DNA of 20,320 bases from Clostridia bacterium (GTDB taxonomy: Bacteria > UBA6262 > WVXT01 > JAUXBS01): positions 1 to 20,320 of the forward strand of contig JAUXDE010000017.1 of the NCBI GenBank assembly GCA_030618495.1, in the 5' to 3' direction. The notes under the pieces are model-generated. The model made no database searches. It worked only from the letters and a program-made list of their open reading frames with translations, and was not told the origin of the DNA. Positions 2,278-20,320 of this stretch are shown here, one piece after another. Made by a program: the position numbers and the translations under genes. Position 1 is the first letter of the stretch; the number at the start of each line of letters is the position of its first letter.

Positions 2278-2544
2278 ATGAGAAAAAGAGCATTAATTAT
2301 TATGGCAATGATTATGTTAGTGTTGGCATCCCCGTTGATTGCGGCGGAAATAATGCCGTTCCTGAAACATACCGGTATAGCGGGGGTGGACTTTAAAGTT
2401 TACGGCCACAGCGCCGAAAGAAAAGATATACTTATGACTGTAGTAAATGCTAATGATCCTCTTGATATAGAAAGCAGCACATACAATTATAGGTCCAACG
2501 GTTACACTTTGAAAGCAACCGCGCGGCCTTTCGGAATTGAATAA
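2278..2544 (+). CDS. N-terminal fragment of the first barrel-like gene
   Basis: As written, translation from the strong start at 2278 gives 88 residues: a signal peptide with a charged MRKR start and a hydrophobic core ending LIAA, then a short mature part that stops at RPFGIE. The mature part is only a few beta-strands and is unlikely to fold as a complete barrel. It is best read as the N-terminal part of the 2278-3720 gene. Confidence 0.55.
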   Translation: MRKRALIIMAMIMLVLASPLIAAEIMPFLKHTGIAGVDFKVYGHSAERKDILMTVVNANDPLDIESSTYNYRSNGYTLKATARPFGIE

Positions 2545-2580
2545 ACGGGAAAAATAGGAAAGATTCAATCAAGATACGAA

Positions 2581-3720
2581 GTGTCCGGTGCTACAGAAAA
2601 TTTTGCCTCTGGAGATACTTTTGACGGTATAAGATTGGGGCTGGGCGCAAGGTTTGGCATTATTGGGGAAACAAAAGTATTGCCAAAAGTCGTTTTGGGA
2701 GTCGAAGGTATTTACACAAATAATCAGCTTATAACCAAGGTAGGAACCCAGTACCTGGGAAATACAAGCGACGTTGAACTACAAGCCTCTCTTGTAGCAA
2801 GCAAAGAAATAATGTTAAAATTCAAAAGAAAAGTAAAAGGGCCCGAGCCCGTAACGGGCCTGCCTGAAATACCGGAGCCGGAAATCAGCCCTGATGAACT
2901 ACTGCTCCCGCTCTGTTTCATACCGCCTGTCGGCGAGGGAATATCGGAAGATGACCTTACTTCAATAACAGGCAGTCTTGAGAAGTCCATCATTGAATCG
3001 GGAATGTTTAAACTTATCGAAAAAGAAGAGCTTGATAAAGTTCTTGAAGAAAAAGGATATGACAAGAAAGGCTGCGCGGGATTGAAATGCGCCAGGGTAA
3101 TAGGCAAGGAACTGGATGTTAGGTATGTCCTGATAGGACTGGTCTCAAAGACGGACGCCGACGTTTACGCCGCTGCGGTAAGCTTCATAGATACACAGGC
3201 CGTGCTTGAGCCTGAGAAAAAAGATGATGAGGGAAAAGCTGTTCTCGGTAAAATCATTCACGCGGCAGGCGTTACTTTTGAATTGATGGAAAATGCCGAA
3301 GAGAATATTAATAATCTCGTTGCAAAACTTATTAAAGTAAAAGTCCGCGTAATATACGAGTCCAACAAACAATCGCTGGTTGAAACGAAGAAAAAGGAAC
3401 TGGAAAAGGAACGGTTGAAACAATTCCAGGAGGAAGTGAAGGAAAAAGAGGAAGATAGGCTCAAGAAAGAAGAGAAGAATAAATTCAAACTTCTGCTTGT
3501 CCCTTATGCCGGAGTAAAATATTTCGTTGACGTTCTATGGAAATCAGAAATAGGAAGGTTTGGGGCAAACGACGGGCTTGGAATTGGGATTCCCTACGGC
3601 GTCGCCGGGGTTGTGGGGCTCAAGGTTCAGTTCATGAAAGTCCTTAGTTTATTCGTTGAAGGCGGCTTTGCGGAGGAAAGCATGATTTCCGGAGGCCTTT
3701 CATTAAATTTCGGCTTGTAA
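2581..3720 (+). CDS. CsgG-like domain plus coiled coil, downstream fragment of the first barrel-like gene
   Basis: This fragment holds most of the interrupted gene. A GTG at 2581 is the first possible start after the TAA, but no Shine-Dalgarno sequence precedes it and no signal peptide follows, so independent export is doubtful. The CsgG-like region shows LLPLCFIPPVGEG, SLEKSIIESGMFKLIEKEELDKVLEE, a short Cys-bearing loop (GCAGLKCARVIGKEL) and VRYVLIGLVSKT. This pattern (get-a-strand, Ser/Ile helix, 'fklIe..eldkvl', 'vlIG') is shared by CsgG/TolB-N-type periplasmic domains. A charged coiled coil and terminal beta-strands follow. The function is not known. Confidence 0.55.
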   Translation: MSGATENFASGDTFDGIRLGLGARFGIIGETKVLPKVVLGVEGIYTNNQLITKVGTQYLGNTSDVELQASLVASKEIMLKFKRKVKGPEPVTGLPEIPEPEISPDELLLPLCFIPPVGEGISEDDLTSITGSLEKSIIESGMFKLIEKEELDKVLEEKGYDKKGCAGLKCARVIGKELDVRYVLIGLVSKTDADVYAAAVSFIDTQAVLEPEKKDDEGKAVLGKIIHAAGVTFELMENAEENINNLVAKLIKVKVRVIYESNKQSLVETKKKELEKERLKQFQEEVKEKEEDRLKKEEKNKFKLLLVPYAGVKYFVDVLWKSEIGRFGANDGLGIGIPYGVAGVVGLKVQFMKVLSLFVEGGFAEESMISGGLSLNFGL

Positions 3721-3730
3721 GAATACCGGT

Positions 3731-4267
3731 ATGCATAGACTTTCTATTGTAACATTGATATGCTTTGTTCCTGTCTTAGCCGATGCCTCCGCTGTGATGC
3801 CATGGCTCACTCCGACAGGTATTGACGGGGTAGAACTTGAGACCCATTGTGGATGGTCTTCAAGGGGAATTGACTTTACTCTTGTCAGTTCCACAACGGA
3901 TGCGAAGGGAACTGAGTTCACCGATGAGTCAAAGGTGCCTGTTGACTGGGTTTCAATACCGGTTCTGATAAAGTTTTCATTACGCCCGGACGTTGGTTTT
4001 GCGCCTTATGTTAAAATCGGCGTATTGAGTTCGGAATTACAGAGAACAGTTTATGATAACGCTTCCAACGAACAGCAGAATAAATGGTACGGCGGTTTTG
4101 ACGGATTTGCAATGGGAGCCGGCGCTAATTGGGTTTTAGGCGGTGATTCTGTAGTATACGGACAGTTTTTGCTGGATATCGGATTAACTTATTATTATTC
4201 AATACTAAACGTTTATAAAAGTTTCGATACCGGCGCTGAGAAAACATATAACAGTTTAAGCTTATAG
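3731..4267 (+). CDS. N-terminal fragment of the second barrel-like gene
   Basis: As written this encodes 178 residues: a signal peptide, the shared MPWLTPTGIDGVE start, and several barrel-like strands (YGQFLLDIGLTYYYS among them), ending SLSL. It lacks the last four or so strands and the aromatic C-terminus that the barrel-assembly machinery normally recognises, so the truncated form would probably not insert into the outer membrane. Confidence 0.55.
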   Translation: MHRLSIVTLICFVPVLADASAVMPWLTPTGIDGVELETHCGWSSRGIDFTLVSSTTDAKGTEFTDESKVPVDWVSIPVLIKFSLRPDVGFAPYVKIGVLSSELQRTVYDNASNEQQNKWYGGFDGFAMGAGANWVLGGDSVVYGQFLLDIGLTYYYSILNVYKSFDTGAEKTYNSLSL

Positions 4268-4534
4268 GAATTTCATGGTTCCCTTGTCTTTAACAAGGCT
4301 TTTAAAATAAGGGATGATTTCTTTTTTACGCCTTACACCGGAGTTAATATGATTGTTGACTACGGCAAATGGGCTTTCCTTGAAGAAAGCGTCACCATGA
4401 ACGGCAGTAATAATTCCCTGCACCTCATAAATGGTTTTGAGGTATCGTTTAGGTCTGTAAGCATCAAGTTTGAACTGGGCATTCTCGGCGGCTTTGGAAT
4501 AGCGGGAGGATTGAACTATGAATTCGGTTATTAA
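4268..4534 (+). CDS. C-terminal fragment of the second barrel-like gene
   Basis: The frame continues without interruption after the TAG, for 88 codons to TAA. It encodes EFHGSLVFNK, FFFTPYTGVNMIVDYG and a terminal GGLNYEFGY. The first ATG in it is at 4349 with no convincing ribosome binding site, so separate translation is unlikely. The sequence still looks constrained (alternating hydrophobic residues, conserved against the upstream paralogue), which suggests the stop is recent or is read through. Confidence 0.5.
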   Translation, partial: EFHGSLVFNKAFKIRDDFFFTPYTGVNMIVDYGKWAFLEESVTMNGSNNSLHLINGFEVSFRSVSIKFELGILGGFGIAGGLNYEFGY

Positions 4535-4564: not shown

Positions 4565-6610
4565 ATGAAACAGTATGAAACAGGCGATTTGAGAAACATC
4601 TGTATTTGCGGCAGTGGGACAACCGGTAAAACACAGTTTGCTGAAATCATGTTACATTCAGCCGGGGCAATAGAAAGGCTGGGTAACACAGACAGCGGCA
4701 ATTCTACATGCGATTACAATCCCGATGAAATTGAAAGAAAAATATCAATAAGGTCAGCTATTGCTTTCTGCGAGTGGAAGGATAAGAAAATAAACATCAT
4801 CGATACCCCGGGTTACGCTGATTTTGTCGGGGAGATGATAGGTGGAATCAGCGTTGCCGATACCGTTATTCTTAATATCTGCGCCTTTGAAGGCGTAGGC
4901 ATAAGAACGGAAAGGGTATGGGAATACGCCCAGGAGAAAAAGAAACCTGCCATTATATTTACCAACAGGATGGACAAGGAAAACGCGAATTTTGATAATG
5001 TAGTCACTGTAGGAAAAGAAAAACTCACACCCAACATCGCCCCGATAACAATACCGATAGGCTCCGCAGAAACTTTTTCAGGGATTGTGAACCTGCTTAC
5101 AAACAAAGCAATCATTGACGGCAATGAAACTGAAATACCTGAAGAGGTTAAGTCTTCGGCTCAAACCTACAGGGACAGCCTTATTGAAACAATAGCGTCA
5201 TCCGATGATTCACTGACCGAAAAATACCTTGACGGCAAGGAACTTACCCCCGATGAAATCAAGGGCAGCCTTAAGAAGGGAATAATAGAAGGTAAGATAG
5301 TTCCCCTTTTCGCAGGTTCATCGCTAAACAATATCGGTATCGGTGAAGTTCTTGATTTCATAGTAGATTATCTGCCTTCGCCGCTCGAGTGCGATTCCAT
5401 TGCAAAGGTTGACCCCAAGGGTGATTTATCAGCCCTGGTTTTCAAGACATCGGTTGAATCCCATATGGGTGTTATAAACTACATGAAAATAATATCCGGG
5501 TCAATCTCGGCAGGGTCGGATATTTACAATGTAACCAAACGAAGCTCTGAAAGAATGGGGCAGCTTTCCTACCCCCGGGGTAAAAACAGGATTGAAACAA
5601 AAACAGCGGTAGCCGGTGATATTATGGCGGCCGTAAAACTTAAATCAACAGGCACCAATGACACCTTGCACAAGTCAAAAAAAGCTGATGAAATACCGCC
5701 AATAAAATTCCCAGAACCCCTGATTGACATGGCTGTATACGCAAAATCAAAGGGTGATGAAGAAAAAATCGGCAATGCCATTCACGCGGCAACCATTGAA
5801 GACTCTACTCTGCGGTTTGAAATGGACAAGGAAACAAAGGAATTTATATTATCCGGGATAGGCGGACTCCAGCTTGAAATCGTCGTAGATAACGCAAAGA
5901 AAATGCATGACCTTGAAGTTGAACTCAAGAAACCAAGGATTCCTTACAAGGAAACCATCCTGGGCAAATCCCAAGCCCAGGGCAAACACAAGAAACAGTC
6001 CGGGGGGAGGGGACAATACGGTGACTGCAACATAAGAATAGAACCGCTTGAACGGGGAAAGGGTTTTGAATTTGTAAACTCTATATTCGGCGGATCAATC
6101 CCCTCTTCGTACATCCCTTCCGTTGAAAAGGGGATAAAAGCCGCGATGGAAAAGGGTTTCATCGCAGGTTACCCCGCGATGGACGTAAAAGTTGAACTTA
6201 TTGACGGTTCCTACCACGATGTCGATTCTTCTAATATAGCCTTTGAAATAGCGGGCAGTATTGCCATACGCAAGGCATTCGAGCAGGCAACCCCCTGCCT
6301 ACTGGAACCCATAGTGGACATTGAAGTAATAATGCCCGAAGAGTTCATGGGCAGTGTGATCGGGGACCTGAACAGCAGGCGAGGAAGGGTACTTGGCATG
6401 GGAAGAAAAGGCAAAAAGCAATCCGTAAAAGCTCAGGTCCCGCTGGGAGAAGTATTTAATTATGCGACTGACCTGAGGTCACTGACTAAAGGCAGCGCTG
6501 ACAGCAGGATGGATTTCTCTCATTATGAAGTGACTCCGGGCAATGTCAGCCAATCCCTTGTTGAAGAATACCAGAAACAGCGCGAAGAAGGAAAGCTGGA
6601 AAGGAGATAA
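4565..6610 (+). CDS. Elongation factor G-like translational GTPase (EF-G-2 type)
   Basis: This 681-residue protein has the full EF-G layout: G domain (1 to about 270), domain II, domain III, domain IV with the tip loop [15 protein letters not shown], and a domain V ending near [23 protein letters not shown] moves tRNAs and mRNA through the ribosome. Several GTPase motifs differ from housekeeping FusA: the P-loop is GSGTTGKT (16-23), the switch I segment reads [14 protein letters not shown] is DTPGY with Tyr84 in place of the catalytic His, and NKMD is NRMD (134-137). DTPGYADF is characteristic of the EF-G-like (EF-G-2) subfamily, so this is probably an accessory paralogue rather than the main fusA; I give no symbol. 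AGGAG precedes the ATG. It lies 4 nt before yebC. Confidence 0.88.
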
Positions 6611-10069: not shown

Positions 10070-10564
10070 ATGAGCAAATTGATACCAGTTGAGAGAATCC
10101 AGGATAAAATATACTTCATCCGGGGACATAAAGTTATGATAGATAAAGACCTGGCAGAACTTTATAAAGTAGAAACTGGCGCTTTGAATCGGCAGGTCAA
10201 AAGGAACAGTGATAGGTTCCCTCCTGAATTTATGTTCCAGCTAACAAAACATGAGTTTAATAACTTGAAATGCCATTTTGGCATATCAAGCTGGGGTGGA
10301 ACCCGTAAGCTCCCTTGCGCATTTACCGAGCATGGAGTACTAATGCTATCCTCTGTTCTAAACAGTAAAAGAGCGATTCAGGTTAATATTCAGATTATGA
10401 AAGCATTCATTGAATTACGTGAATTACTTATTACCCAAGAAACCTTCAAAAAGCGCATAGACAACATGGAGCAAAAGTACGATAAACAATTCAGGGTTGT
10501 TTTTCAGGCAATAAAGCAATTATTAAAATCTCCAAAGAAGAAAACGAGGAAAATAGGATTCTAA
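10070..10564 (+). CDS. ORF6N-domain DNA-binding protein
   Basis: This is a 164-residue protein of the ORF6N type, a domain first described in phage and large DNA virus proteins. Visible signatures are IYFIRGHKVMIDKDLAELY, LNRQVKRNSDRFPPEFMFQL, AFTEHGVLMLSSVLNSKRAI and NIQIMKAFIELREL, followed by a predicted coiled coil and a Lys-rich tail (SPKKKTRK). It may bind DNA; target and role are unknown. Its neighbours are housekeeping genes (hit before, lipoprotein and alaS after) and the domain is common on mobile elements, so lateral arrival is plausible, but I see no integrase or flanking repeats here. Confidence 0.85.
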   Translation: MSKLIPVERIQDKIYFIRGHKVMIDKDLAELYKVETGALNRQVKRNSDRFPPEFMFQLTKHEFNNLKCHFGISSWGGTRKLPCAFTEHGVLMLSSVLNSKRAIQVNIQIMKAFIELRELLITQETFKKRIDNMEQKYDKQFRVVFQAIKQLLKSPKKKTRKIGF

Positions 10565-19715: not shown

Positions 19716-20320
19716 ATGGGCTATATCCCACGCAATCTTTCTGCAATATTGGAAAGAAGTATTAAAAACAATAGGGTCATTATAATTCTTGGAAGTAGGC
19801 AGGTTGGCAAAACTACTTCTTTGAAGATACTGCAAAAAAACATTCCGAAAAACAGCATACAATTTTATTTTGACCTTGAGGATATTAGAAACCTGGATAT
19901 ATGCCAGAATATTGACACGTTAAAATTTTATTTATCCGGAGAGGGTGTCAATATTAAGAAACAAAAGGTATTTATTGCCATTGATGAGTTCCAATACATA
20001 AAGAATGCTACAAAACTCCTGAAAACCATATATGACTTGTATCCTTATGTAAAAGTTGTTGTGTCCGGCTCTTCTTCGTTGGAAATTCAAAAACATCTGA
20101 AAGAATCACTTGCAGGAAGAAAAAGAGTTTATATCCTATATTCATTAAGTTTTGAAGAGTATCTAAGGTTTAAAAGCGAAAAGATATATTCAGAATATGA
20201 AAAAATAAGAATATCAAAAGTTGAAAGTCGTTATGTTGAGACAAAAAATAATAAGTATTTTAAAGATTATCTTTCCTCCGACACACCCCGAACAATTTCC
20301 GTTAGTTATATATCTTCGAA
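19716..20320 (+). CDS. AAA_14/DUF4143-type ATPase (3' end cut by window edge)
   Basis: Translation from ATG 19716 stays open for 201 codons to the right edge, so the gene is partial. It starts MGYIPRNLSAILERSIKNNRV, then Walker A GSRQVGKT (26-33), an aspartate-rich stretch FYFDLEDIRNL, Walker B VFIAIDEFQYI (85-95), sensor-like VVVSGSSS (114-121) and YSLSFEEYLRF. These match the N-terminal ATPase part of the widespread AAA_14/DUF4143 proteins, which carry a PD-(D/E)XK-like or DUF4143 part downstream, outside this window. Their function is mostly unknown; roles in defence or genome mobility have been proposed. Codons are more AT-rich than in the housekeeping genes, suggesting different ancestry. 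Confidence 0.8.
   Translation, partial: MGYIPRNLSAILERSIKNNRVIIILGSRQVGKTTSLKILQKNIPKNSIQFYFDLEDIRNLDICQNIDTLKFYLSGEGVNIKKQKVFIAIDEFQYIKNATKLLKTIYDLYPYVKVVVSGSSSLEIQKHLKESLAGRKRVYILYSLSFEEYLRFKSEKIYSEYEKIRISKVESRYVETKNNKYFKDYLSSDTPRTISVSYISS

Follow-up and report, generated by a model that had tools for sequence, protein, structure and literature searches.

The window analysed here is the whole stretch of 20,320 nucleotides at positions 1 to 20,320 of contig JAUXDE010000017.1 (assembly GCA_030618495.1) from an uncultured Clostridia bacterium. Two genes, referred to as gene one and gene two, lie head to tail in the window between an aminotransferase gene and an EF-G paralogue, which is followed by yebC, ruvC, ruvA, and ruvB. 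The features of the locus are listed in Table 1. A good ribosome-binding site, GGAGGAAGAAG, precedes the ATG of gene one, and gene two starts 10 bases past the final stop of gene one. Each gene contains exactly one internal stop, and over the 747 codons of the pair the frame is unchanged, with neither a frameshift nor a second stop. The sequence and its translations confirm the coordinates, stop codons, and frames given in the original prediction, and also its remark that the TAA and the TAG differ in codon and in position (codon 89 versus codon 179).

Table 1. Features of the interrupted gene pair and its neighbours (window positions, or residues of the read-through protein where indicated).
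Feature	Position	Strand	Basis or remark
Class IV aminotransferase gene, pabC/ilvE-like	1392-2258		
Gene one: signal peptide, barrel N-part, insert, barrel C-part, one in-frame stop	2278-3720	+	Translation
TAA, codon 89 of gene one	2542-2544	+	Sequence, translation
Gene one, barrel N-part	residues 1-180		
Gene one, CsgG/LpoB-like domain	residues ~185-320		
Gene one, helical coiled coil	residues ~340-400		
Gene one, barrel C-part	residues 406-480		
Insert in gene one: CsgG/LpoB-like domain and coiled coil, inside the barrel	2830-3489	+	Missing from gene two and relatives
Gene two: signal peptide and plain beta-barrel, ~267 residues, one in-frame stop	3731-4534	+	Translation
TAG, codon 179 of gene two	4265-4267	+	Sequence, translation
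EF-G paralogue, intact	4565-6610	+	Pfam EF-G domains; order kept in L013 and L014

Both genes are predicted to encode a signal peptide followed by an outer-membrane beta-barrel, and the two products are distantly related members of one family. BLASTP aligned them with E-values of 2e-6 in the N-terminal part and 0.006 in the C-terminal part, and the joined barrel parts gave an alignment score of 121 against 35 ± 5.6 for shuffles; the paralogy proposed earlier is thus supported by both tests. The proteins had also been described as aligning with each other through the interruptions. This holds at the TAG (EFHGSLVFNK against VELQASLVASK) but not over the whole length, as some 220 additional residues in gene one, lying between barrel residues ~180 and ~406, separate two barrel strands. 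Relatives match gene one solely at residues 4-179 and 406-480. Both genes share with the Pfam families OMP_b-brl and OMP_b-brl_2 (PF13505, PF13568) a signal peptide, a length of about 240-267 residues, alternating strands, and matches in the expected region, but the two window genes and a relative, P0003, score under the Pfam cut-offs (18.1 and 24.2 bits for OMP_b-brl against a curated cut-off of 28.7). AlphaFold2 models of the read-through proteins were of very low confidence (pLDDT 38.5 and 33.7); the secondary structure predicted in these models, strands followed in gene one by a helical insert, is a weak hint. A sequence search of solved structures gave no significant match.

The insert of gene one resembles the periplasmic alpha-beta domains of the CsgG, LpoB, and DUF3280 class, with weak family matches that lie far under the curated cut-offs (LpoB, E = 8.5e-4; DUF3280, E = 0.002-0.005; CsgG, E = 0.01). 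Nine further intact copies of the CsgG/LpoB-like domain occur in the genome (ten in all), always in an open frame and in proteins of varied layouts. Unlike domains of this class carried on lipoproteins, that of gene one lies within a barrel between two strands. Given the usual barrel topology, in which the N-terminus is periplasmic, the alignment would place the insert in a periplasmic turn, a position suited to such a domain. Insertion of a CsgG/LpoB-like domain into a barrel is a less usual arrangement and may merit separate attention.

The nearest relatives of both genes are barrels of about 240 residues from genomes of the same order, with best E-values of 8e-17 for gene two and 2.8e-10 for gene one. 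Gene two shares 28-35% identity with the intact relatives across nearly its full length. Two genomes of the same order and another family, G004 (WVXT01000022) and G005 (WJOT01000122), carry an intact barrel gene of 240 codons directly upstream of the EF-G paralogue, and the order barrel gene, EF-G paralogue, yebC, ruvC, ruvA, ruvB is conserved in both (L013 and L014, respectively). A third genome, G002, has an intact barrel copy at a contig end. Alignment of these three copies showed sense codons at both stop positions and one intact frame across them, and each of the two window paralogues likewise has a sense codon at the stop position of the other. Among the relatives the dN/dS of the barrel gene is 0.21-0.27, indicating purifying selection and therefore a functional gene in those genomes. 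These comparators are of the same order; the sole genome of the same genus, G001, has a completeness of 76%, and its assembly breaks off inside the adjacent aminotransferase gene. G001 was dropped as a comparator, since its assembly lacks the locus and is silent on the stops.

Coding continues past both stops. None of 5000 random sequences matched in composition reproduced the open frame of 391 codons beyond the TAA, and 45 of 5000 reproduced that of 88 codons beyond the TAG; both exceed chance. In-frame coding signal and coding-type codon usage persist after the stop in both genes, and the insert of gene one is well coding in frame (score 0.256). When the post-stop parts of both genes were aligned with intact relatives, the scores were 68-84, 94-112, and 59-77, against about 30 ± 5 for shuffles. 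Conserved residues are retained about equally on either side of the stops: gene one keeps 13 of 19 before its stop and 23 of 40 after it, and gene two 20 of 30 and 14 of 31.

The extent of such interruptions was examined in two samples of stretches totalling 534 kb, about 32% of the genome, in which every stop with a same-frame coding signal on both sides was listed. Among the 53 candidate stops, the TAA of gene one and the TAG of gene two showed homology that continues across them and had the longest stretches lacking a plausible start. The others resemble ordinary gene boundaries with an ATG or GTG/TTG start close after the stop (the GTG/TTG cases were judged by eye from the sequence), and no further convincing interrupted gene was present in the sampled 534 kb; the damage is therefore local within the sampled part. 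The genome encodes both RF1 and RF2, which carry their typical PxT and SPF motifs. No tRNA with a stop anticodon was among those found by ARAGORN on about one third of the genome or among the 30 matches listed by a tRNA family search. For these reasons a changed code or general suppression is unlikely, and the earlier view that the genetic code is normal is upheld.

Several explanations of the twin stops have to be weighed. It is unlikely that the stops are not fixed and reflect either errors of sequencing, assembly, or consensus calling or variants carried by minority strains in a metagenome assembly. The genome is fragmented into 179 contigs and both genes are intact save for one codon each, as an artefact might leave them; against this, two substitution-type errors falling in adjacent genes, when 534 kb held no comparable case, would be an improbable cluster, and the frameshift that is the usual long-read error is absent. 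It is highly improbable that the fragments work as genes in their own right, such as one for a soluble CsgG/LpoB-like protein translated from the ATG at 2812. This ATG is the first past the TAA and sits just ahead of the inserted domain, but its product would have no signal peptide and would end in two orphan barrel hairpins. Stand-alone fragments in relatives, which would have counted against the original prediction, were not seen; instead, the related genomes carry the barrel as a single intact frame with no stop at either place, and the fragments are therefore not stand-alone genes. Reversible silencing of two surface proteins is the least probable explanation. Phase variation is classically seen in outer-membrane proteins, but no simple repeat or slippage tract occurs at either stop and the frame does not change. 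The longest DNA word common to the two genes is 10 bases, which leaves no recombining copy, and neither a repeat tract, an invertible segment, nor recombining copies were found at the stops. The phase-variation-like silencing suggested originally thus found no support. Gene conversion between gene one and gene two was also considered and dropped.

A further explanation is that leaky or programmed readthrough still allows low-level expression of both genes and would lower the dose of the barrel proteins; this is quite unlikely. Bacterial genes that are sound apart from a single in-frame stop are widespread, part of them under purifying selection, and some authors, pointing to stops that are conserved and have dN/dS below 1, hold that many such stops are tolerated or read through (PMC7918605). 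The two window genes resemble the cases of Belinky et al. (2021; PMC7918605) in having one stop per gene, an otherwise intact sequence, and an unchanged frame, but the test used there was a conserved stop together with low dN/dS, and here the comparators lack a shared stop. A stop at the same place in homologues, as expected of readthrough, was not seen; relatives and paralogue alike have sense codons there. The RNA after the TAG of gene two is more stably folded than shuffles (z = -2.7; 3 of 200), whereas that after the TAA of gene one is not specially folded (z = +0.4). With stop-free relatives, stops that differ in codon and place, normal RF1 and RF2, no stop-reading tRNA among those found, and a stable fold after one of the two sites, the suggestion of programmed readthrough was not borne out. 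A scenario in which leaky termination at the two neighbouring envelope genes is tolerated or exploited by the organism, with the barrel pair kept at low dose and the stops selectively maintained, is very unlikely. Were sister strains to have the stops in common at low dN/dS, the locus would offer a clean test of regulation versus decay for bacterial single in-frame stops.

Of the three readings offered originally, recent decay fits best. The stops are probably nonsense mutations that arose recently and independently in the two adjacent paralogues of an envelope-protein locus, at an early stage of gene loss through lost selection. Two old paralogues arranged in tandem, both coding for outer-membrane beta-barrel proteins, would each have gained one such mutation, and presumably both mutations are fixed in the population. 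The strain would then make just a truncated, presumably non-functional barrel from each gene. Selection on the locus may have been lost when one paralogue, or a pathway served by both, ceased to matter, which would have left the other free to decay. About 3-4.5% of random substitutions in the two genes create a stop, and two stops in 747 codons correspond, with a wide error, to about 2-3% neutral divergence; with no frameshift over that length, the loss is therefore taken to be recent. The even retention of conserved residues and the coding-like codon usage past the stops also fit recent events. As in a young pseudogene, the frame is interrupted relative to intact homologues and there is little further damage, although the lack of further damage would look the same under leaky expression. 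Early loss of a redundant envelope locus is an ordinary and common kind of event, and caution is advisable, as paired stops in adjacent paralogues look striking yet match such a loss.

Some minor observations were made at this locus and elsewhere. The RNA just past the TAG (window 4268-4367) contains a small hairpin and then CTTTTAAAA, which may be a weak terminator or may have arisen by chance. In G005 (L014, 4798-5679) and G002 (L015, 115-1056) the barrel gene immediately follows the 5S gene of a ribosomal RNA operon, unlike the pair in the window, which follows an aminotransferase gene. G002 has two slightly different barrel gene copies at contig ends (L015, 115-834; L016, 6581-6814), which may be a tandem pair or strain variants. 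Elsewhere in the window, an AAA_14 family ATPase gene (19716-20318) runs off the contig end, and a protein with an ORF6N domain, which is found in phage-type regulators, is encoded between housekeeping genes (10070-10564). An ORF near position 17500 of L133 ends in KKTRKIGF, the same residues as in this ORF6N-domain protein, and precedes another aminotransferase-like gene.
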